DNA of 33,828 nt from contig JAEUJI010000356.1 in NCBI GenBank assembly GCA_016794805.1, forward strand, positions 1 through 33,828, given 5' to 3'. Shown here piece by piece: positions 3,748 through 14,744 of the stretch. This DNA is from Gemmatimonadota bacterium (GTDB taxonomy: Bacteria; Gemmatimonadota; Gemmatimonadetes; Gemmatimonadales; GWC2-71-9). Within the stretch, counting starts at the first letter, position 1. Every line of letters begins with the position of its first letter. The notes under the pieces were generated by a model. It was not told the origin of the DNA and did no database searches. It was given only the letters and a program-made list of their open reading frames with translations. Made by a program: the position numbers and the translations under genes.

Positions 3748-4590
3748 ATGTCGCCCCCCGCCACCCTCTATGTCGTCGCCACGCCGCTCGGCAACCTGGG
3801 GGACCTGACCCACCGGGCCGAGGCAGTGCTGCGCGCGGTGCCGGTGGTCGCGGCGGAGGATACCCGCCGGATCCGGGGGCTGCTCTCCCACCTCGACGCC
3901 CATCCGCCAACCATCGTCAGCTTTCACGCCCACTCCCCCGAGCGGCGGCGGGAGTCACTGCTGGAAATCCTCGCCGACGGCCGGGACGTGGCGCTGGTCA
4001 CCGATGCCGGTACGCCGGGCATCAGCGACCCGGGCGAACTGCTCGTGGCGGAGGTCCGGGCCGCGGGATTCCCCGTGGTCCCCATCCCCGGACCGAGCGC
4101 GGTAACGACGGCCCTTTCCGCCTCCGGGCTGCCCGCCGACCGCTACACCTTCCTTGGCTTCCTGCCCCGGAAGGGAAAGGAGCGGGAACGGATGCTGGCC
4201 GGCGTGGCCCAGTCGCCCTGGACCGTCGTCCTGTATGAGGCGCCGCCGCGGCTCGCCGACCTGCTGCAGGATATCGCCCGGGTGGCGGGGGCCGAGCGCC
4301 AGGTCGTGGTGGCGCGGGAGCTGACCAAGCTGTTCGAGGAGTTCCGCGCCGGAACTGCCGCCGAGCTGGCCGCGTACTACGAAGCCACGGAGCCGCGCGG
4401 GGAGATCACCCTCGTTGTGGCCGGGAGGGAGGAGGAGGCGTCTCCCACCGTTCCCGCCGAGGACGCCGGAGCGCATGCCGCGCGGCTGCTTGGCGCGGGA
4501 CTCTCCCGCAAGGCGGCGGTGCAGCAGCTGATCCAGGACCTGGGCATCCCGCGCAACGAGGCGTACCGGATTGTGACGTCCCTGCCATGA
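3748..4590 (+). CDS. rsmI: 16S rRNA (cytidine-1402-2'-O)-methyltransferase
   Basis: RsmI uses S-adenosylmethionine to 2'-O-methylate C1402 in the decoding centre of 16S rRNA. The 280-residue product is of normal length for this tetrapyrrole-methylase-fold family. Signature segments are LYVVATPLGNLGDLTHRA (residues 7-24), AAEDTRRIRGLL (35-46), VALVTDAGTPGISDPG (about 85-100), VPIPGPSAVTTALSASG, FLGFLPRKGKER and LYEAPPRL. The C-terminal part ends with a small helical domain (LSRKAAVQQLIQDLGIPRNEAY), usual in full-length RsmI. The stop overlaps the start of the DUF4159 gene by four bases (ATGA), so the two are probably translated together although their jobs look unrelated. Confidence 0.95.
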   Translation: MSPPATLYVVATPLGNLGDLTHRAEAVLRAVPVVAAEDTRRIRGLLSHLDAHPPTIVSFHAHSPERRRESLLEILADGRDVALVTDAGTPGISDPGELLVAEVRAAGFPVVPIPGPSAVTTALSASGLPADRYTFLGFLPRKGKERERMLAGVAQSPWTVVLYEAPPRLADLLQDIARVAGAERQVVVARELTKLFEEFRAGTAAELAAYYEATEPRGEITLVVAGREEEASPTVPAEDAGAHAARLLGAGLSRKAAVQQLIQDLGIPRNEAYRIVTSLP

Positions 4591-5276
4591 GTGGTCGCTT
4601 CGTCGGGCCGATCCTGGTCCTGCTCGGTATGGGGTTCGCCGCGCCTGCCCCGGCGCAGGCGCCGCCCGGCACGATGGCGATCGGACGGCTGCACTATGAT
4701 GGAGGGGGCGACTGGTACGCCAACCCGTCCGCGCTGCCCAACTTGATTGCCGCGGCGCGCCAGCGGGCCGGCCTCCGGCTGGCGGAGAAGGAGAAGGTGG
4801 TGCGGCTGGTGGACGACGACATCTGGAACGTGGCCTACCTGCATGTGACGGGGCACGGCAACCTGCGCTGGAGCGAGCAGGAACTCGTCATCCTGCGGCG
4901 CTGGCTGGTGGCGGGTGGCTTCCTGCATGTGAGCGACAACTATGGCCTCGATGAGTCGTTCCGGCGGGAAGTGGCCCGGCTGTTCCCGGAGCGGCCGCTG
5001 GAGCCGGTGCCGGGCGGACATCCCATCTACCACCTGGTGTACGACTTCCCCCAGGGGGTTCCGAAGATCCACGAGCATGATGGCAAGCCGGCGGAAGGGC
5101 TGGGGATCTTCCTCGACGGGCGGCTCGCCCTCTTCTATGACTACCAGAGTGATCTCAGCGACGGCTGGGAGGACCCCGCCGTGCATCGTGACCCGGCCGA
5201 GAAGCACGAGGCCGCGCTTCGCATGGGAGTGAACCTGATCGCATACGCCATCGGATTCGGCGGGACCCAGCCGTGA
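4587..5276 (+). CDS. DUF4159-family exported protein
   Basis: The 229-residue product has a signal peptide (hydrophobic residues 5-20, cleavage near APAQA at 21-25). The mature part matches my recollection of DUF4159: IGRLHYDGGGDWYANPSALPNL, then DDDIWNVAYLHVTGHG, then LRRWLVAGGFLHVSDNYG, and a C-terminal GHPIYHLVYDFPQG with HEHDG. The fold is expected to be like ThuA or class I glutamine amidotransferases, but no catalytic triad is obvious. DUF4159 genes are often found beside MoxR ATPase, DUF58 and DUF4175 genes in operons thought to act at the envelope. Here it is followed directly by DUF4175 with a GTGA overlap. Biochemical role unknown. Confidence 0.88.
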   Translation: MSGRFVGPILVLLGMGFAAPAPAQAPPGTMAIGRLHYDGGGDWYANPSALPNLIAAARQRAGLRLAEKEKVVRLVDDDIWNVAYLHVTGHGNLRWSEQELVILRRWLVAGGFLHVSDNYGLDESFRREVARLFPERPLEPVPGGHPIYHLVYDFPQGVPKIHEHDGKPAEGLGIFLDGRLALFYDYQSDLSDGWEDPAVHRDPAEKHEAALRMGVNLIAYAIGFGGTQP

Positions 5277-8200
5277 GCAACACGGGCCTGGCACTCCAGG
5301 GGCTGACGGGCGGCTTCCGGCGGCTCGCGCTCACCGCCTGGGCGGGCGCCGGCCTGGGGCTGGTGCTGGCTCTGCTCGGCGCGGCGGCGTGGGGGGCGCG
5401 GCTGGGGTGGTTTTCCCAGCCCTGGTGGGTCCTGGCCACCTGGGGTGTGGTGCTGGTGCTGGCGGGCGCAGTGTTGTTCCAGCTGCGGCACCAGCTGGCG
5501 CGGCTCTCCCCGGCCTGGGTGGCAGAGCGGCTGGAGGCCCTGGGATTCCGGCAGGGGGCGCTCCGGGCGCACCTGGAGCCAGCCGTGGCCGGGACCAGCG
5601 CGGCGCTCCTCGCCGCGGCCGACGAGGCCTCAGCCCGCGAGGTAGCGACCCGGGCTCCCGCGCTTCTCAGCGAGACTCAGCTTCGATTCCGTCGGCGGGC
5701 GCTGCTCGGTCTCGGCGCGCTCGGCGCCGGGCTGCTGCTGCTCGGAACCGCCCGCCCCACGCACGGGCGGCCCGCGCTGCTCTGGCGCCCCGTTGCCGCC
5801 TGGTCGGCGACGGTGGCGCCGCTCCGGCTCACGGTCAGCGCCACGGAGATCGATCGGGGCGACTCGGTGCAGGTGGCGGTGGCGGCCCCGGGGCGCCAGC
5901 ACGCGATCCTCTGGGTGCGCGCCCCCGGTGAGACGTGGCGTGGTGAGGGGCTCGCCCTGGATTCCAGCGGCCTGGCGAGCACGACGCTCGGCCCCCTCAC
6001 CCAGGATCTCTTCGTCCGGGTGACCAGCGGCGGGCGCGGCTCCGACACCCTCGCGGTCAAGGTGCGGATCCCCGCCTTCCTCGGCACCCTCGCAGTCATG
6101 GCCCGGTATCCGCGCTACCTCGACCTCGAGGATGAGCCGCTCCCGACCGACGGGGACACGATCGTGGTGCCCGAGGGCACCCGGTTCGACACCGACGGGG
6201 AGGCCACGGCGGCGCTGGCCGCCGCGGCATGGACCGCTCCCGGCACCTCCGTGCCGCTCCAGGTGAACGGCGGGCGCTTTGCAGGGAGTTTCATGCCCGG
6301 GGGCCGCCGAGTCTGGGAGCTCGCCCTGTCCACGGTGGCCGGTCATCCGCTCGCAGGTGATACCGTGCGGCTGCCGGTGGTCGTGGTGCCGGACAGCGCC
6401 CCGCGGGTGGAGGTGCCCGTGCCCGGCGCCGACACGCTGGTGCCGCTCAACCTCCGGGTTCCCCTGGTGGTGGATGCGCAGGACGACCATGGCCTGACCC
6501 GGATCACCATCGAGAGCCGGCGCATCAGCCGGCTGGGGTTCGAGGATCCGGCTCGCGTGGAGTCGGTGGCGCTCCCCGACGGCGTCCAGGATCGCGCCAT
6601 CCTGCCGCATGAACTCGACCTCAACCAGCGCGGCCTGCTGCCGGGCGACACCGTCCGGTTCTTCGTGCGGGTGAGCGACAATGCCCCGGTGGCGCATGTA
6701 GCCCGCTCCCGCGAGTTCGTGCTGCGGCTGCCCACGCTGAGCGAAGTCCGGGAGGCGACCCGCCAGACCTCGGAGCAGGTGAGCCGCCGGCTGGACAGCA
6801 TTGCGCAGGCAAGCAAGCTGCTGGAACGGCAGACCGAGGATCTGGCCCAGGAGCGGCCGCGCAACACCGGCGCCCAGCAGGGCTCCAGCGACGAGTCGCT
6901 CAGCTTCGAGAACGCCAAGCGGGCGGAAAACGTGGCGGAGTCGCAGGAGCAGCTGCTGCGGGAGGCGGAATCGGTGCGGGAGGCGATCGAGGCGCTGCGC
7001 GAGAGCGCAGAGGCCGCGGGGCTCAACGATCCCGCCTGGCAGCAGCGACTCCAGGAGATCCAGGACCAGCTGGAGCGGGCCCTTACGCCGGAGATGCGGC
7101 AGCAGCTCGCGGAGCTGCAGCAGGCACTGAAGGACCTGGATCCGGAGCGGAGCCGGGAGGCGCTGGAGCGGCTGGCGGAGGCCCAGGAGCGGCTGCGGGA
7201 GGCGCTCGAGCGGAGCCGGGAGCTGTTCAAGCGCGCCGCCCTCGAAGGGGACATGGCCAACCTGACGGCCGAATCGCGCGAGCTCAGCCAGCAGCAGCAG
7301 CAGTGGGCCCAGCAGGTCCCGGCGCTCGACAGCACGCGCGCCGCCCGGGAGGAACAGGCCCTCGCCGCCCGGGCCGACTCGCTGGGCAGCGCCCTGGAGC
7401 GGCTGGCGGAGGAACTCGGCGAACAGAGCGCCGAACGACAGCAGGCGATGGAGCAGGCGGCGGACCGGGCGCAGCAGGCGGCGGCGCAGATGCGGCAGGC
7501 GGCGCAGTCGGCCGGGCAGGGAAAGAAGCAGCAGGCCCAGCGCCAGGGACAACAGGCGGCCGACCAGCTCAATCCCCTGGGGGACCAGATCGAGGAGCAG
7601 CGGGAGGGGATGCAGCAGGAATGGCGCGAGGAGGTCATGCAGGCTCTCGACCAGGTCCTCGCGGATGCCGGACGGCTCGCGGAGCGCCAGCTTGGGGTCA
7701 CCGACGCGCTGCGGCGGGGGGACACCAGCCCCGGCGTCCGGGCGGAGCAGGGGGCCATCGAGGAAGGAGTGGAGCGGCTGCTGGAGCAGGTGAAGGAGAT
7801 CAGCGGCAAGAACGCGCTCGTGGGCCAGCAGTCGGCGGTGGCGCTGGCGGCGGGGCGGGACAACATGCGGCGGGCCCGAGAGGCGCTTGCCAACGCGGCA
7901 CCGAATCCGCGGGAGGCGGGGCGGCGCGCCGGGGAGGCGGTGGATGCCCTCAACGCCGCCGCCTTCAGCCTGCTGCGGAGTCGCGGCTCCGTGGAGGGGG
8001 CGGGGTCAGGCTCCGGCATGCAGGAGGCGATGGAGCAGATGAGCCAGATGGCCCAGCAGCAGGGGCAGCTGGGCCAGCAGTCCGGCGGAATGCTCCCCAT
8101 GATGGGCCAGCAGGGGGGCGCCCAGATGCAGGAACAGCTGCGCGCGCTCGGGGCGCAGCAACGGGCCCTGGCGGAACGGCTGGAGCGGATGCGGGCCGGG

Positions 8201-8566
8201 GGGCAGATCCCCGGGGCGTCCGAGATGTCGCAGGAGGCCAAGGAGCTGGCGCGCACCCTGGAGGCGGGGCGGCTCGACCGGCAGACGGTCGAGCGGCAGG
8301 AGCGGCTCTTCCGCCGGATGCTCGACGCGGGCCGCACCCTGCAGGGGCAGGAAGAGGACGAGAAGCAGGAGCGGCAGAGCACCGCGGCGACCGATGATTC
8401 CATCCGGCTGCCGCCGGCGCTGCGGAGCCGGATCATCCAGGGGGAGTCCGCCCTCCGGCTGCCGACCTGGGAAGAACTCCAGGCGCTGTCACCGGACGAC
8501 CGGCGGCGGGTGGTGGAATACTTCCGGCGGCTGGCGGAACAGCCGGGAAGCGGGGAACAACGATGA
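5273..8566 (+). CDS. DUF4175-family membrane protein with long Gln/Glu-rich coiled coil
   Basis: The 1097-residue protein starts at a GTG that overlaps the preceding stop (GTGA). In order: two transmembrane segments (about residues 20-42 and 50-70), a cytosolic-type linker, a third segment (about 143-160), a beta-rich region with Ig-like features (about 170-480, including ARYPRYLDLEDEPLPTDGD and VDAQDDHGLTRITIESRR), then about 570 residues rich in Gln, Glu, Arg and Ala predicted to be coiled coil, with Met/Gln-rich tracts near residues 920-960. This matches the DUF4175 family. The order DUF4159-DUF4175 is shared with other phyla from memory. It probably anchors or organises an envelope complex; no enzymatic motif is seen. 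The gene ends in an ATGA overlap lying in a hairpin. Confidence 0.85.
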   Translation: MSNTGLALQGLTGGFRRLALTAWAGAGLGLVLALLGAAAWGARLGWFSQPWWVLATWGVVLVLAGAVLFQLRHQLARLSPAWVAERLEALGFRQGALRAHLEPAVAGTSAALLAAADEASAREVATRAPALLSETQLRFRRRALLGLGALGAGLLLLGTARPTHGRPALLWRPVAAWSATVAPLRLTVSATEIDRGDSVQVAVAAPGRQHAILWVRAPGETWRGEGLALDSSGLASTTLGPLTQDLFVRVTSGGRGSDTLAVKVRIPAFLGTLAVMARYPRYLDLEDEPLPTDGDTIVVPEGTRFDTDGEATAALAAAAWTAPGTSVPLQVNGGRFAGSFMPGGRRVWELALSTVAGHPLAGDTVRLPVVVVPDSAPRVEVPVPGADTLVPLNLRVPLVVDAQDDHGLTRITIESRRISRLGFEDPARVESVALPDGVQDRAILPHELDLNQRGLLPGDTVRFFVRVSDNAPVAHVARSREFVLRLPTLSEVREATRQTSEQVSRRLDSIAQASKLLERQTEDLAQERPRNTGAQQGSSDESLSFENAKRAENVAESQEQLLREAESVREAIEALRESAEAAGLNDPAWQQRLQEIQDQLERALTPEMRQQLAELQQALKDLDPERSREALERLAEAQERLREALERSRELFKRAALEGDMANLTAESRELSQQQQQWAQQVPALDSTRAAREEQALAARADSLGSALERLAEELGEQSAERQQAMEQAADRAQQAAAQMRQAAQSAGQGKKQQAQRQGQQAADQLNPLGDQIEEQREGMQQEWREEVMQALDQVLADAGRLAERQLGVTDALRRGDTSPGVRAEQGAIEEGVERLLEQVKEISGKNALVGQQSAVALAAGRDNMRRAREALANAAPNPREAGRRAGEAVDALNAAAFSLLRSRGSVEGAGSGSGMQEAMEQMSQMAQQQGQLGQQSGGMLPMMGQQGGAQMQEQLRALGAQQRALAERLERMRAGGQIPGASEMSQEAKELARTLEAGRLDRQTVERQERLFRRMLDAGRTLQGQEEDEKQERQSTAATDDSIRLPPALRSRIIQGESALRLPTWEELQALSPDDRRRVVEYFRRLAEQPGSGEQR

Positions 8567-8579
8567 GTTCCCGTTTCCC
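8545..8579 (+). repeat. Inverted repeat whose loop holds the ATGA stop/start overlap (locus B)
   Basis: The left arm GGGAAGCGGGGAAC (8545-8558) and right arm GTTCCCGTTTCCC (8567-8579) pair over 13 positions with one G-U pair and one bulged G. The 8-base loop contains the DUF4175 stop and the TPR gene start. The pyrimidine repeat continues to about 8597 and encodes the odd RFPFPRFPF in the TPR signal peptide. In mRNA the hairpin would present the start codon in a loop and could tune coupled translation (inference). Confidence 0.6.
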
Positions 8580-10305
8580 GTTTCCCCGGTTCCCCTTTCT
8601 CGGGCTGCTCTGCTGCTGGGCGGTCCCGGCGATGGCGCAGGACCCGCTTTCCCGTGCCTTCGATCTGGAGCGTCGCGGGAGCTACGCCCAGGCGGCGGAG
8701 ATCTATCGGGGGGTGCTGCGGGACAAGCCCGGCGAAGTCACTGCCCTCCTGGGGCTGGAACGGGCGCTCACGCCGCTCAATCGGCTGGTGGAGGTGCTCC
8801 CCGCGCTGCAGGCCGCCATCCGTGCCACGCCGGGTGCCATTCCGGTCTACGGGGTGGGGCTCCGGGTGTACGCCGCCGCCAACCTGATGGACAGCCTGCC
8901 CGGACTGGTGGACGCCTGGGCCCGGGCCGCCCCGGGGGACGAGACGCCGTATCGCGAATGGGCCAGCGCGGCGCTGCAGCGGCGGGATCGCCCGACGGCG
9001 CGGCGGGCGTTTCAGCTGGCGCGGGAGCGGCTCAACCGGCCGGACGCCCTCGCGGCGGAGATGGCGCAGCTCGCTGCCGCGGAGGAGGACTGGCCGGTCG
9101 CTACCCGCGAATGGCTGCGTGCGGTGCGGCAGCTGCCCGGGTATCGGTCGTCCGCCACGGCCACGCTGGGCCAGGCGCCCGCCCGGGCGCGCCCCGAGAT
9201 CCTCGCTGCTCTGGAAAAGGAAAGCGGCCCGGAGGCGGCCCGCCTGTCGGTGGACCTCCGTACCCGATGGGGCGATCCGCTCGGCGCCTTCGACGCCCTG
9301 ACCCGCCTGCTTACGGGGCCCGCGCCGCAGCAGATCGACCTGCTGCAGGGGTTCCTGGAGCAGGCCCGCATCGAATCCACGACGCCCTACCTGCAGGCGC
9401 AGGCGCGGGCGCTCGAGGCCCTGGCCGAGCGCTGGATCAACGCCCCGCAGCGGGCGCGCTACCGGCTGGACGCGGCGCGGGCCTACGCGGACGCCGGGGA
9501 GCGGCCCGCGGCCCGGCGGATGCTGACCCTGATCGCCAACGACTCGACCAGCGGCCCGGCGGTGGCCGCCGGGGCGACCGGCACCCTGATCGACCTGCTG
9601 GTGAAGGAAGGGAAGGTGGAGGAAGCGGGCCGCCAGCTGGACCGGTACCGCGGCGCGCTGCTCGTGGATGAGTACCTGCGGCTCCGCCGGGCCGTGGCTG
9701 CGCGCTGGGCCCAGGGTGGAGACCTTGCGCGGGCGGAGGAGATGCTGGCCGCGGACAGCAGCGTGGAGGCGCTGGCCCTCACCGGCCGGTTCCGGCTCTA
9801 CGCCGGGGACCTGAAGGCGGCCTCGGAGCAATGGAAGACGGCGGGCGCTTTCGCCGGCACTCGCGAGGAGTCCACCGAGCGCGCCCAGCTGCTGGCCCTG
9901 ATCCAGCCGATACAGGAGGACACACTCCCCGCGCTGGGCGAGGCGCTGCGGCTGCTGGATGCCGGGGACAGCCTCAAGGCCGCCGCAGCGTTCGAGCGGG
10001 TGGGCGTGGGCCTCCCTCCGGACGGCGGCCGCGCCGACCTGCTGCTCTTTGCGGGCCGGATCTACGCCGGCGCGGGCGTGGCGGCGGAAGCGGAACGGCT
10101 GTTCCGTGCGGCGGTGCAGCCGGATGCGCCAGGCACGGCGGCGGCGGCGCTGCTCGAGCTTGGCCGCCTGCTGGTGGCCACCGAACGTGGAGACCAGGCG
10201 GTGGCGGTGCTGGAACAGATGATCCTCGACTACCCGGGCAGCGCCCTGGTGCCCCAGGCACGGCGGCTGCTGGACCAGGCGCGCAACGCGGTGCCGCGGA
10301 CGTGA
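8563..10305 (+). CDS. Exported tetratricopeptide-repeat protein
   Basis: The 580-residue product has a signal peptide (residues 1-25, ending VPAMAQ) with an unusual RFPFPRFPF n-region that is encoded by a dispersed TTCCC repeat. The mature part is helical with TPR-like units, for example FDLERRGSYAQAAEIYRGVLRDKPGEVTALLGLERAL near the N-terminus and RIYAGAGVAAEAERLFRAAV near residue 500, closing with a tandem typical of outer-membrane assembly or tol-linked TPR proteins (QAVAVLEQMILDYPGSALVPQARRLL). It is likely a periplasmic protein-protein scaffold. Start and stop overlap neighbouring genes by four bases (ATGA, GTGA), so it should be made together with the DUF4175 and Tat-exported proteins. 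Specific partners are not visible. Confidence 0.85.
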   Translation: MSSRFPFPRFPFLGLLCCWAVPAMAQDPLSRAFDLERRGSYAQAAEIYRGVLRDKPGEVTALLGLERALTPLNRLVEVLPALQAAIRATPGAIPVYGVGLRVYAAANLMDSLPGLVDAWARAAPGDETPYREWASAALQRRDRPTARRAFQLARERLNRPDALAAEMAQLAAAEEDWPVATREWLRAVRQLPGYRSSATATLGQAPARARPEILAALEKESGPEAARLSVDLRTRWGDPLGAFDALTRLLTGPAPQQIDLLQGFLEQARIESTTPYLQAQARALEALAERWINAPQRARYRLDAARAYADAGERPAARRMLTLIANDSTSGPAVAAGATGTLIDLLVKEGKVEEAGRQLDRYRGALLVDEYLRLRRAVAARWAQGGDLARAEEMLAADSSVEALALTGRFRLYAGDLKAASEQWKTAGAFAGTREESTERAQLLALIQPIQEDTLPALGEALRLLDAGDSLKAAAAFERVGVGLPPDGGRADLLLFAGRIYAGAGVAAEAERLFRAAVQPDAPGTAAAALLELGRLLVATERGDQAVAVLEQMILDYPGSALVPQARRLLDQARNAVPRT

Positions 10306-11606
10306 GGCGACGGGACTTTCTTCATGTGGCTGGCGCCGGCCTCGGCCTGGGGCTCCTCGGTCCACGCGGCCTGTTGTCCGCCGGCCCGTCGGTCCACCGG
10401 GCCGCGCCGTACCTCCTGATCCCGATGGACGACAGCCAGGCCGATCACCTGAAGGCGTACGGCCTCACCTTCCGGGTGCTGGAGCGCGGCGGGCGCGCCG
10501 AGTGGTTCCTCAACTTCCGGGGCGGGGCGTTCCTGGTGCCGGGCGACGGCGCCACCACGCGGGACGCGGCCCTCGCCGGCGTGACCAGCGAGCCGGTGAG
10601 CGAGGGCCAGGTCACCGACATCAAGGCCCAGATCCAGCAGCAGAACATGGACGCCGTCCCGCTGGAGAAGCCGCCCAAGATCGCGGTGTACGCGCCGCCC
10701 AATGCCTCGCCCTGGGATGACGCCGTCACCATGGTGCTCAACTACGCCGGGATCAACTTCGAAAAGATCTGGGACGAGGAGGTCGTGGGGAAGGGACTGA
10801 CCAAGTACGACTGGCTGCACCTGCACCACGAGGACTTCACCGGGCAGTATTCCAAGTTCTACCTGAACTACTCCGGCGCCCCGTGGCTGGTGGACATGGT
10901 GCAGCGGAATACCGCCATGGCCCGGCAGCTCGGCTTCCCCAACGTGCCGGCGCAGAAACGCGCGGTGGCGGAGGAGATCCGCGGCTTCGTGAACCGCGGC
11001 GGGTTCCTGTTTGCCATGTGCACCGCGACGGAAACCCTGGACCTGGCGCTCGCCAGCGGGCGGGCGGACATCGCCGCGAGCTATGCCGATGGCTCCCCGA
11101 TGGACCCCGATGCCACCCGCAAGATGGACTGGAGCCAGGCGCTGGCGTTCCAGGGGGCCCAGCTGGAGCTCTCGCCCAACATCCCCAGCTTCTCGGACAT
11201 CGACGGCCACCAGGTGAACAGCCTCGACCGGCGCCAGCCGCTCGGGGCCTTCAAGCTGTTCAACTTCAGCGCCAAGATCGACCCCGTGCCGGCCATGCTG
11301 GTGCAGTGCCACCGGGACGTCATCCCCGACTTCTACGGGCTCACTACCTCGTTCACCAAGTCCACGCTCAAGCCATCCGCCACGATCCTGGCGGATGAGC
11401 CGGGCGCGCCGTGGGCCAAGTACATCCACGGGGAGCTGGGCCAGGGGACCTGGACCTTCTACGGGGGGCATGATCCCGAGGACCCCCAGCACCAGATCGG
11501 CGATCCGCCGACCGACCTCTCGCTGCACCCGCATTCACCGGGCTACCGGCTGATCCTCAACAACGTCCTCTTTCCCGCGGCCAAGAAGCGCGAGCTCAAG
11601 ACCTGA
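10302..11606 (+). CDS. Tat-exported protein with glutamine-amidotransferase-like elbow (often labelled asparagine synthetase B)
   Basis: The start is a GTG (10302) overlapping the TPR stop; it gives MRRRDFLHVAGAGLG, a twin-arginine signal (R-R-x-F-L), and 434 residues. The mature part begins APYLLIPMDDSQADHLKAYG. I recall close relatives in Bacteroidota databases under the name asparagine synthetase B, but no AsnB glutaminase N-terminal Cys or ATP-pyrophosphatase motif is present, so the label looks wrong. Notable are WDDAVTMVLNYAGI (about 138-151), the very conserved-looking YDWLHLHHEDFTGQY (169-183), NRGGFLFAMCTATET (231-245), resembling a nucleophile elbow with C240, and FYGGHDPEDPQHQIGDPPTD (387-405). 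A Cys/His/acid hydrolase related to class I amidotransferases is a plausible reading but unproven. Probably periplasmic and folded before export. Confidence 0.8.
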   Translation: MRRRDFLHVAGAGLGLGLLGPRGLLSAGPSVHRAAPYLLIPMDDSQADHLKAYGLTFRVLERGGRAEWFLNFRGGAFLVPGDGATTRDAALAGVTSEPVSEGQVTDIKAQIQQQNMDAVPLEKPPKIAVYAPPNASPWDDAVTMVLNYAGINFEKIWDEEVVGKGLTKYDWLHLHHEDFTGQYSKFYLNYSGAPWLVDMVQRNTAMARQLGFPNVPAQKRAVAEEIRGFVNRGGFLFAMCTATETLDLALASGRADIAASYADGSPMDPDATRKMDWSQALAFQGAQLELSPNIPSFSDIDGHQVNSLDRRQPLGAFKLFNFSAKIDPVPAMLVQCHRDVIPDFYGLTTSFTKSTLKPSATILADEPGAPWAKYIHGELGQGTWTFYGGHDPEDPQHQIGDPPTDLSLHPHSPGYRLILNNVLFPAAKKRELKT

Positions 11607-11631: not shown

Positions 11632-14136
11632 ATGAGCCGTATCCCCCCCGACGTCCAGTCGTTCCTCGCCTCCGAGATCGCCGCCGCCCGCGGGCGGGAG
11701 GTCTCCTTTGTGGCCACCGTGGATGCCCGTGGCGCCATCACCGCCGCGCGCACCGTGGCGCGGGGCACGGTGGACCGGGTGCTCGCCCTGCCGGGAGTGA
11801 CGGCGCGGGGGGAGATGCTGCTCCACAACCACCCGAGCGGGCTGCTGGAGCCGTCGATGGCCGACCTTTCGGTGGCCGCCCGGCTGCACGACGGCGGGGT
11901 GGGGTTCGGCATCATCACCAACGATGCCTCGGAGCTCTATGTCGTGGTCGAGGTGCCCCGGGACAAGGGCGCCGTCCGGCTCGATGCGCTGGATGTGGTG
12001 GCGCAGCTCGGCGAGGCCGGACCGGTGGCGCTGGCGCTCGGGTCGTACGAGGACCGGCCCAGCCAGCGGGACATGGCGGCCCACATCTCCGACGCCTACA
12101 ACGACGGTGGGGTGCTGCTTCTTGAGGCCGGCACCGGGGTGGGCAAGTCGTTCGCCTACCTGGTGCCGGCGCTGGCGTGGGCCAAGGCCAATGGCGAGCG
12201 CACGGTCATCAGCACCAACACCATCAACCTGCAGGAGCAGCTGGTGGGGAAGGACCTCCCGCTGCTGCGGGACGCCCTGCAGGACGAGCATCATGTGGCG
12301 AGCTTCGCGCTGCTCAAGGGGTGGCGCAACTACCTCTGCCTCTCCCGGCTGCACCAGGCGGTCGGCAGCCAGCGGTCGCTGCTGGAACCGGACAAGTATG
12401 ACGAGCTGACGGGGCTCTTCGAGTGGGCCGGCCGGACCCAGGACGGCACCCTGGCCGACCTGGCGGTGACCCCGTCAAGCGAGGTATGGGACGAGGTCAG
12501 CGCCGAGGCCGATCTCTGCCCCCGCCTGCAGTGTTCCCACTTCGATGCCTGCTTCCTGTTCCGCGCCCGGCGGCGGGCGGCGGAGGCGGACGTGGTCGTG
12601 GTGAACCACCACCTGCTCGCGGCGGACCTGGCGGTGCGCCGGGCCTCGGAGAACTGGCGCGAGGCCGCGGTGCTGCCGCCGTACGACCGGCTGATCCTGG
12701 ACGAGGCGCACCACCTCGAGGACGTGGCCGCCGGGCACCTGGGCGCCCAGGTGACCAGCCGCGGCATCCGCCGCCTGCTCGGCCGGTTCGAGCGGAACGG
12801 CAAGGGGCTGCTCCCGACCCTGGCCGCCGATCTCGTAGCACAGGGGGACCTGCTGTCCCGCGCCAGCCTCGACCTGCTGCGGGAGCGGCTGCTCCCGGCG
12901 GTGGCGGATGGCCGGCGCGCCGCGGACCAGCTGATCCTCAGGCTGCACGGGCGGCTGGAGCAGGAGGTGGGAGGCGTCCTCCGGCTGACCGACGACTTCC
13001 AGCAGGACGCCGTCTGGGCCGGGGGGCTGCAACGGGAGCTGGACGGGGCGCTGATCGCTTTCCGCGCCATCCGGGACTACGTGGAGACCATTGCCGACCG
13101 CATGGCTGGGGGGGAACCGCTCACCGAGCGGCGCACCCAGCTGCTGGGTGAGCTCCGTGGGGTGATGCGACGGCTGGAGTCGGTCTCGGACGGGCTCAAC
13201 CAGTCGTTGCGCCCCGCCGCGGGTGGCCCTCCCATCGTGCGGTGGCTGGAGCGGAGCGGGGCCAAGGGCCAGCAGGTCGCGCTGGCCGCGGTGCCGCTCG
13301 ACCTCGCCCCGATCCTGAGGGAGGCGATCTTCGACCGGGTGAAGACCGTCGCGCTCACCAGCGCCACCCTCGCCGCCGGCGGGGAGTTTGATTTCCTCGA
13401 GTCGCGCCTGGGGCTGTCCGTGGAACCGAACCCGGTGAGCGTCAAGACGATCCTGGCCAGCCCGTTCGACTACGCGGAGCAGTGCCTGTTCGGCATTCCC
13501 AACGACATCCCCGACCCGCGCGAGGATGAGGCGGGCCACGCCGCCGCCGTGGTGCAGGTGGTGCATGACCTGGCCTGGGCATCGGACGGGGGGATGTTCG
13601 TGCTGTTCACGAGCCATAACGCGCTGCGCCGGGCCGCCGCCGAGCTCCGGGCCGTCGCCGGCGAGCGGTGGCCGATTCTGGCGCAGGGCGAGGCCTCGCG
13701 GGACGTGCTGCTGCGCCGGTTCCGCGAGCTGGGCCGCGCCATCCTGCTGGGAACCGATTCGTTCTGGGAAGGGGTCGATGTGCCGGGGCGGGCGCTGCGG
13801 TCGCTGGTCCTCACGAAGTTACCTTTCAAGGTGCCCTCCGAGCCGCTCACCGCGGCCCGGCTGGAGCGCCTGGCGGAGCAGGGGGCGGACGGCTTCATGG
13901 GGTACCTGCTGCCGCACGCCGCGCTCAAGCTGAAGCAGGGCTTCGGCCGCCTCATCCGCACCCGGGCCGACGTGGGCGCCGTGGTGCTGCTGGACAAGCG
14001 GGTCGTCACCAAGCGGTACGGCCCGCTGGTGCTGAGCGGACTGCCGCGCGCCGACCGGGTCATCGGGCGCTGGGCCGATGTCCGCACCCGCATCGAAGAC
14101 TTTTTCGCCCGCCATGGCATAGGAGCCAGCGTATGA
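11632..14136 (+). CDS. JAMM (RadC-like) domain fused to DinG/XPD-type helicase
   Basis: The 834-residue protein combines two modules. Residues 20-110 resemble the RadC JAMM domain: E23, then H65-N-H67-P-S-G with S75 and D78, fitting H-x-H-x7-S-x2-D exactly, so the zinc site looks intact. Residues 130-834 are a superfamily 2 helicase of DinG/XPD type: Walker A GTGVGKS (167-173), four cysteines C236, C296, C301 and C307 placed as for the 4Fe-4S cluster, DEAH at 357-360, then LTSATLA, GTDSFWEGVDVPG and QGFGRLIRT. DinG helicases unwind 5' to 3' and resolve R-loops, G-quadruplexes or recombination intermediates. JAMM proteins are often metallopeptidases, while RadC function is unsettled. The fusion suggests a DNA-repair factor with built-in protein or unknown processing. 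An FAH-family gene follows with ATGA overlap. Confidence 0.9.
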   Translation: MSRIPPDVQSFLASEIAAARGREVSFVATVDARGAITAARTVARGTVDRVLALPGVTARGEMLLHNHPSGLLEPSMADLSVAARLHDGGVGFGIITNDASELYVVVEVPRDKGAVRLDALDVVAQLGEAGPVALALGSYEDRPSQRDMAAHISDAYNDGGVLLLEAGTGVGKSFAYLVPALAWAKANGERTVISTNTINLQEQLVGKDLPLLRDALQDEHHVASFALLKGWRNYLCLSRLHQAVGSQRSLLEPDKYDELTGLFEWAGRTQDGTLADLAVTPSSEVWDEVSAEADLCPRLQCSHFDACFLFRARRRAAEADVVVVNHHLLAADLAVRRASENWREAAVLPPYDRLILDEAHHLEDVAAGHLGAQVTSRGIRRLLGRFERNGKGLLPTLAADLVAQGDLLSRASLDLLRERLLPAVADGRRAADQLILRLHGRLEQEVGGVLRLTDDFQQDAVWAGGLQRELDGALIAFRAIRDYVETIADRMAGGEPLTERRTQLLGELRGVMRRLESVSDGLNQSLRPAAGGPPIVRWLERSGAKGQQVALAAVPLDLAPILREAIFDRVKTVALTSATLAAGGEFDFLESRLGLSVEPNPVSVKTILASPFDYAEQCLFGIPNDIPDPREDEAGHAAAVVQVVHDLAWASDGGMFVLFTSHNALRRAAAELRAVAGERWPILAQGEASRDVLLRRFRELGRAILLGTDSFWEGVDVPGRALRSLVLTKLPFKVPSEPLTAARLERLAEQGADGFMGYLLPHAALKLKQGFGRLIRTRADVGAVVLLDKRVVTKRYGPLVLSGLPRADRVIGRWADVRTRIEDFFARHGIGASV

Positions 14137-14744
14137 TCCCGGTGAAGCCGAGCAAGATCGTGTGCATCGGCCGCAACTACCTGGCGCACGCCCGGGAGCT
14201 GGGCAACGAGCTCCCGCCCGAGCCGCTCATCTTCCTCAAGCCCCCCTCGGCGCTGCTCGCGCCTGAGGGCACGATCCTCCTGCCGCCCCAGTCGCAGCAG
14301 GTGGAGTACGAGGGAGAGATCGGCGTGGTGGTGCTGGAGCGGCTCAGTCACGTCTCGGTCGAGGCGGCGGGCGAGGCCCGGCTTGGCTTCACCTGCGTCA
14401 ACGACGTGACCGCGCGGGACCTGCAGAAGAGCGACGGGCAGTGGAGCCGCGCGAAGGGATTCGACACCTTCTGTCCGGTGGGACCGCGGGTGGTCGAGGG
14501 GCTCGACTGGCGCACCCTGGAGGTGCGCACCCGGGTGAACGGGAGCGAGCGGCAGCACGGCCGCACCGCCGACATGGCCTACAGCATCCCGGTCATCCTC
14601 TCCTATATCAGCAGCGTGATGACGCTCGAGCCCGGGGACCTGATCCCCACGGGAACGCCGGCGGGGGTCGGGAGGCTGGCCTCGGGCGACACGATCGAGG
14701 TGGAGGTCAGCGGCGTGGGGATTCTCCGGAACTCGGTCCGATGA
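14133..14744 (+). CDS. Fumarylacetoacetate hydrolase (FAH) family protein
   Basis: The 203-residue protein consists of the FAH C-terminal catalytic domain alone, as in YcgM/FAHD1-type acylpyruvases and oxaloacetate decarboxylases. IVCIGRNYLAHARELGNELPPEPLIFLKPPSAL is the usual N-terminus. VEYEGEIGVVV supplies the E-x-E metal ligands, NDVTARDLQ the Asp ligand, and the segment GQWSRAKGFDTFCPVGPRVV plus GDLIPTGTPAGVG complete the active site. It needs a divalent metal and acts in the cytoplasm on a small diketo acid; the exact substrate cannot be read from sequence. The ATG at 14133 overlaps the helicase stop (ATGA) and GGAG lies upstream at 14122, which fixes the start. It overlaps the next aminotransferase gene by four bases. 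Confidence 0.92.
   Translation: MIPVKPSKIVCIGRNYLAHARELGNELPPEPLIFLKPPSALLAPEGTILLPPQSQQVEYEGEIGVVVLERLSHVSVEAAGEARLGFTCVNDVTARDLQKSDGQWSRAKGFDTFCPVGPRVVEGLDWRTLEVRTRVNGSERQHGRTADMAYSIPVILSYISSVMTLEPGDLIPTGTPAGVGRLASGDTIEVEVSGVGILRNSVR

Follow-up and report, generated by a model that had tools for sequence, protein, structure and literature searches.

A RadC-like DinG helicase of the Gemmatimonadota with a conserved JAMM metal site and a possible role at DNA-bound proteins

The window (i.e., the whole stretch of DNA analyzed here; 33,828 nucleotides) carries a gene (positions 11632 to 14136, forward strand) that encodes a JAMM domain joined to an XPD/DinG-type helicase. The window protein is a further member of the published, uncharacterized RadC-like DinG subgroup. 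Sequence comparisons indicate that the RadC-like DinG gene is an old housekeeping gene in which the catalytic residues have seldom been lost. By analogy with FANCJ and SPRTN, we tentatively propose that the helicase may bring the JAMM metallohydrolase onto DNA-bound or crosslinked proteins, with both functions residing in one chain.

The preliminary description of this DNA regarded the fusion as uncharacterized in the literature. This novelty does not hold, and a previously undescribed architecture is ruled out, since the fusion had been published both by Cheng 2025 (PMC11981726) and by the Aravind group (PMC5512222). The former (section 3.8) named the subgroup "RadC-like DinG," with a type protein from Desulfuromonas soudanensis, listed its E/H/H/D site, and stated that there was no research on the subgroup. 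The latter (Iyer/Aravind 2017, citing earlier work) described RadC fusions to DinG/RAD3-like helicases and used them in proposing that RadC is a nuclease, a proposal repeated in PMC3482391, where the helicase is unmentioned. To these papers, the present analysis adds the near-core distribution of the gene, its occurrence in about ten phyla, the grouping of the fused JAMM domains in one separate clade, and the conservation of the ligands together with its exceptions.

RESULTS AND DISCUSSION

Domain organization and predicted structure

The open reading frame begins with ATG and runs for 834 residues uninterrupted by stops; its assignment is based on the frame itself, Pfam, and NCBIfam, and all features given below lie on the forward strand. 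A RadC-clade JAMM domain occupies residues 6 to 107 (positions 11647 to 11952), on the evidence of Pfam, AlphaFold2, and Foldseek. The Pfam RadC match (PF04002; residues 6 to 97) scored 35.1 bits (E = 1.4e-8; curated cutoff, 22.1), and the score was 41 bits when the N terminus was scanned alone. The domain contains a complete JAMM/MPN+ motif (E, H-x-H-x7-S-x2-D), comprising the predicted general base E23 (11698 to 11700), two predicted metal ligands in H65-N66-H67 (11824 to 11832), and the predicted JAMM serine and third metal ligand in S75-x-x-D78 (11854 to 11865). A variable linker follows (residues 108 to 138; 11953 to 12045; mean column identity of 0.40 versus 0.59 for the JAMM domain).

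The features of XPD/DinG Fe-S helicases are all present in the remainder of the protein. These are Walker A (G167-S173, GTGVGKS; 12130 to 12150), in which G169, G171, and K172 are invariant in 130 sequences; the Fe-S cluster region with all four cysteines (C236, C296, C301, and C307; 12337 to 12552); the Walker B/DEAH box (D357-H360; 12700 to 12711; placed by sequence alignment); and motif VI (Q769-R776; 13936 to 13959) within the second motor domain. The latter domain corresponds to a Helicase_C_2 match (Pfam PF13307; residues 646 to 805; 13567 to 14046; E = 1.7e-41), and a fast-evolving Arch domain (residues ~373 to 560; 12748 to 13311; mean column identity, 0.37) has approximate bounds taken from homology with DinG (6FWR). 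The NCBIfam YoaA and DinG models span residues ~126 to 824, with the YoaA model (NF053712) matching residues 126 to 810 (E = 1.6e-167). E23, H65, H67, S75, D78, and K172 were found at the positions given in the preliminary description, and the DEAH box, four cysteines, and motif VI that it named are present as well.

An AlphaFold2 model of residues 1 to 138, built from 53 homologues, had a mean pLDDT of 91.8. In a Foldseek search with this model, RadC (2QLC) was the best PDB match (E = 3e-5), followed by JAMM/MPN proteins that included BubCD, CsRpn11, and CSN5. When the fused domains were combined into a profile, it too reached RadC 2QLC first, and its alignment with AfJAMM had the motif in register in a match that was not significant (E, ~0.1). 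The full-length model (pLDDT, 90.4) had E. coli DinG (6FWR) as its top Foldseek match. These models predict a JAMM fold for the N-terminal domain; with the Pfam RadC score above its cutoff, they bear out the earlier suggestion of a JAMM/RadC domain fused to a DinG helicase.

The window protein has the domain order of the RadC-like DinG type protein described by Cheng 2025, with E/H/H/D at the same secondary-structure positions and a YoaA-like helicase with an Fe-S region, and related fusions were recovered from Geobacteraceae and Desulfuromonadales. It comes from another phylum, however, and the absence of HolC, which Cheng 2025 (PMC11981726) stated for the hosts of RadC-like DinG, is not strict, since HolC was found in 2 of the 15 fusion-bearing genomes searched (L167 and L168). 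With stand-alone RadC (2QLC), the protein shares the JAMM fold, the HNHPSG-x3-PS-x2-D motif, and Pfam PF04002, whereas the JAMM domains of the fusions group in a separate clade, are more acidic, and lack 8 residues that follow the second strand. The motor domains, Fe-S region, and Arch are those of YoaA/DinG (6FWR); unlike the window protein, E. coli DinG has no JAMM domain, and the difference from YoaA lies in a score below the equivalog cutoff (558.9 versus 680 bits) and in the partner HolC, no homologue of which was found in the window genome. ExoDinG (S. aureus DinG, 8ZEF) likewise carries an N-terminal metal-dependent enzyme domain on the same type of helicase, but that domain is a DnaQ-type exonuclease.

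Conservation of the JAMM site and its exceptions

From an alignment of 130 homologues, a sample with some near-duplicates, 107 motif-bearing fused proteins were picked by the pattern H-x-H-x7-S-x2-D. Residues H65, N66, H67, P68, S75, and D78 are identical in all 107 of these pattern-selected proteins, at overall identities down to ~29%, and E23 is identical in the 103 proteins that cover its position. In these alignments, the conservation of the ligands appears far beyond chance. As the pattern itself defined this set, the telling cases would be proteins that have the domain but lack the pattern. The 23 homologues without the motif include three cut at contig ends and one that has lost the domain (L066), and the remainder are JAMM-less helicases.

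Nine fused homologues have lost one Fe-S cysteine while retaining intact JAMM ligands; the replacements are C236S in seven Gemmatimonadota (L067 to L071, L073, and L112) and C296S in L115 (KSB1) and L093 (Planctomycetes). Because the ligands are invariant in the same set of proteins, the JAMM site is under stronger constraint than the Fe-S cluster. The nine proteins concerned may have a modified cluster or none.

We sought exceptions in the genomes of the phylum that had a weak or missing JAMM match. The view that the ligands are never replaced, which was true for the first 130 homologues, was overturned by this wider search. Replacement of the metal ligands in close homologues, which the preliminary description had named as evidence against a JAMM site, was found solely in genus g86 (L194 in G121 and L195 in G109; reduced genomes of ~2 Mb). 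There, the JAMM domain is kept with a degenerate site (E23R/S, H65L/I, Q or H at position 67, and D78E), and every checked helicase motif is intact except for C236S. Moreover, genera g36, g38, g41, g73, and g79 have the helicase without a JAMM domain; L066 and L183 to L193 are such helicases from several lineages of the phylum. Given these losses and the degeneration in g86, the domain is dispensable, its activity is not indispensable, and in g86 it persists without its site.

These exceptions are relevant to the idea that the JAMM domain is noncatalytic in vivo and is a metal-stabilized module, structural or for protein docking, by which the helicase is positioned, the ligands being kept for folding. 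Such a role would suit g86, which retains the domain despite replacement of E23, H65, and D78 (and, in one of its two species, of H67), as well as the several lineages that keep the helicase without the domain. However, the degeneration is limited to two small genomes, and E23 and S75 show the same invariance as the ligands, although a purely structural zinc site would need neither. We consider a structural role unlikely. The glutamate of JAMM enzymes acts as a general base, and since the site includes this glutamate and the serine, we infer that in most lineages the domain is an active metal-dependent hydrolase. It would act on what the motor meets.

Distribution and evolution

The window genome (G000; 3.9 Mb in 377 contigs) contains the fusion gene and one canonical RadC, and the window gene encodes the sole YoaA/DinG-type helicase found in it. 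Homologues of the window protein are present in 326 of the 395 Gemmatimonadota genomes, and strong matches to the fused JAMM domain occur in ~235 of the 295 genomes that are ≥90% complete (an approximate count at E ≤ ~1e-37). The gene is chromosomal, near-core in the phylum, and, judging from this distribution, ancient.

In the genome collection, fusions were found in about ten phyla. The labels outside the Gemmatimonadota are Geobacteraceae, Desulfuromonadales, KSB1, Latescibacterota, Sumerlaeota, Dadabacteria, Planctomycetes, Bacillota (Halothermothrix), Fusobacteriota, Spirochaetales, and Acidimicrobiia; some of the carriers are metagenome bins whose labels are possibly wrong, but named strains carry the fusion too (Geobacter argillaceus, Citrifermentans bremense, and Fusobacterium mortiferum). 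The L074 fusion, on a short Acidimicrobiia-labeled contig, may reflect horizontal transfer or misbinning.

A tree of the JAMM domains (108 columns, with poorly resolved inner branches) separated 62 fused domains from 18 stand-alone RadC domains by one branch (SH-aLRT, 100). On the helicase tree (81 rows), four changes suffice to explain the fused state, versus ~18 expected with shuffled labels; on the strength of this difference, the unrooted tree is compatible with a single early fusion that was lost a few times. Stand-alone RadC occurs alongside the fusion in 12 of 14 fusion-bearing genomes. No solo JAMM domain of the fused type was detected in 12 fusion-lacking genomes, in which only weak RadC-like matches in frames of 230 to 420 amino acids were seen. 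The expectation of the preliminary description that the fusion offers a clue to the role of RadC therefore stands in part: a RadC-clade domain does sit on a helicase, but the fused domain, as a clade of its own that coexists with stand-alone RadC in most of these genomes, need not share the role of the latter.

An origin from a mobile element or phage was rejected. The fusion is absent among the best 15 of the 321 plasmid records that matched the query, these 15 matching from about residue 126 onward (i.e., the helicase only); phage records gave weak, partial matches, and the gene is near-core. As a separate observation, L151 (an Oryzomonas bin) has a RadC-type JAMM motif in a frame of 2,283 amino acids, which may encode a polyvalent protein from a mobile element.

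Genomic context

The gene belongs to a block conserved across much of the phylum, which consists, in order, of TP_methylase, DUF4159, DUF4175, and TPR genes, a gene that matches no Pfam family, and the genes for RadC-like DinG, a fumarylacetoacetate hydrolase (FAA hydrolase), and an aminotransferase. The upstream portion of the block corresponds to positions 3748 to 11606 of the window. The Pfam-less gene directly upstream ends at 11606, and RadC-like DinG starts 25 bases past its stop; on the other side, the FAA hydrolase family gene (14133 to 14744, forward strand; assigned from Pfam and gene spacing) shares 4 bp (ATGA) with the end of the helicase gene. On account of this gap and this overlap, the gene is probably an operon member that is not separately induced, and cotranscription with the FAA hydrolase gene is probable.

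A defense function, including that of type IV CRISPR DinG, is unsupported. PADLOC matches are confined to the helicase part of the window protein, the conserved neighbors that fall in named families are either metabolic or functionally uncharacterized, and neither source pointed to Csf genes or to a defense locus around the window gene. We suggest that the role would instead be one of constitutive genome maintenance, which would fit a near-core gene with a neighborhood conserved in the phylum and with no fusion among the best 15 of the 321 plasmid records.

The neighbors of the fusion gene vary between phyla. In KSB1, a beta-CASP metallo-beta-lactamase gene related to CPSF73/SNM1A lies directly upstream in four loci (L082, at 7002 to 7967, L089, L091, and L097), and this arrangement hints at a possible connection with DNA repair.

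Proposed function

Characterized JAMM enzymes are known to cleave peptide or isopeptide bonds, and FANCJ is an Fe-S helicase related to the DinG type. According to a passage in PMC12279946 (citing Yaneva 2023), unfolding by FANCJ makes DNA-protein crosslinks cleavable by SPRTN. In the analogous process proposed for RadC-like DinG, the YoaA/DinG-type helicase would, by homology, move 5' to 3' on single-stranded DNA; the motor would run into a protein bound tightly, or crosslinked covalently, to the DNA and strain or unfold it; and the JAMM domain would then cleave peptide bonds of the DNA-bound protein. The resemblance, an Fe-S helicase working with a zinc metalloprotease, concerns the mechanism only: FANCJ and SPRTN are two proteins, SPRTN is a SprT protease and not a JAMM protein, and we claim no protease homology.

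Several observations point to a protein substrate. The E/H/H/S/D site is invariant in a set of proteins nine of which have lost an Fe-S cysteine, and the predicted fold is nearest to RadC, with JAMM/MPN proteins such as CsRpn11 and CSN5 coming next and the fused-domain profile reaching 2QLC and then AfJAMM (the latter match being nonsignificant). The fused JAMM domains are acidic (mean net charge over residues 1 to 110 of -5.7, versus -2.6 for stand-alone RadC), and R44 is the only nearly invariant basic residue in the JAMM core, unlike what is typical of DNA-cutting domains; this acidity counts weakly against the nuclease proposal. On the other side, we know of no RadC-family protein with demonstrated peptidase activity, the site is degenerate in one genus with an intact helicase, the domain has been lost in several lineages, and the gene neighbors give no pointer to crosslink repair except for the beta-CASP gene of KSB1.

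The main rival is that the JAMM domain is a nuclease or another nucleic acid-processing enzyme, which would trim or nick the strand that helicase action exposes. We know of no JAMM nuclease shown by experiment, and the acidic domain with its one core arginine is also unfavorable to this idea, as is the DALI search of Cheng 2025 (PMC11981726), in which the RadC-like domain retrieved metalloproteases and zero nucleases. In its favor, and against peptide cleavage, the domain has the same position as the DnaQ exonuclease, endonuclease, and HNH domains of ExoDinG, EndoDinG, and CasDinG-HNH (PMC11981726), and the RadC clade has been argued to lack a groove for a ubiquitin-like tail in a study that favored a nuclease (PMC5512222; nuclease also in PMC3482391). 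The KSB1 neighbor, moreover, is itself a beta-CASP nuclease gene. Nucleic acid cleavage is a serious possibility, if less likely than not, and we rank a protein substrate slightly ahead of it.

The fold also resembles those of Rpn11, CSN5, and the bacterial BubCD structure, as would be expected if the domain were a deconjugase for a ubiquitin-like modifier (of the eukaryotic or Bil type) acting on a modified repair protein. RadC-clade domains, however, reportedly lack the tail groove (PMC5512222), and we regard deconjugation as very improbable. An E2-type conjugating enzyme was found in 0 of 15 fusion-bearing genomes by a search whose control likewise returned 0.

The wider claim built on the cleavage of DNA-bound proteins, namely, that RadC-like DinG is a widespread single-chain bacterial machine for the repair of DNA-protein crosslinks or protein roadblocks (a FANCJ-like helicase with its own JAMM protease), is more doubtful than protein cleavage as such. 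If true, it would give a RadC-clade domain its first defined function and would provide, so far as we know, the first JAMM enzyme acting on a DNA-bound protein without a ubiquitin-like tag.

RadC domains are found across bacteria. The fusion links an intact RadC-clade site to a motor with assayable activity, and natural controls exist in the form of dead-site and domain-less relatives, so that the question of protease or nuclease becomes directly testable. The interest of RadC-like DinG lies in making the RadC question assayable and not in the novelty of its architecture. The dead-site JAMM domains of genus g86 (L194 and L195) are comparable to the pExoDinG of Cheng.
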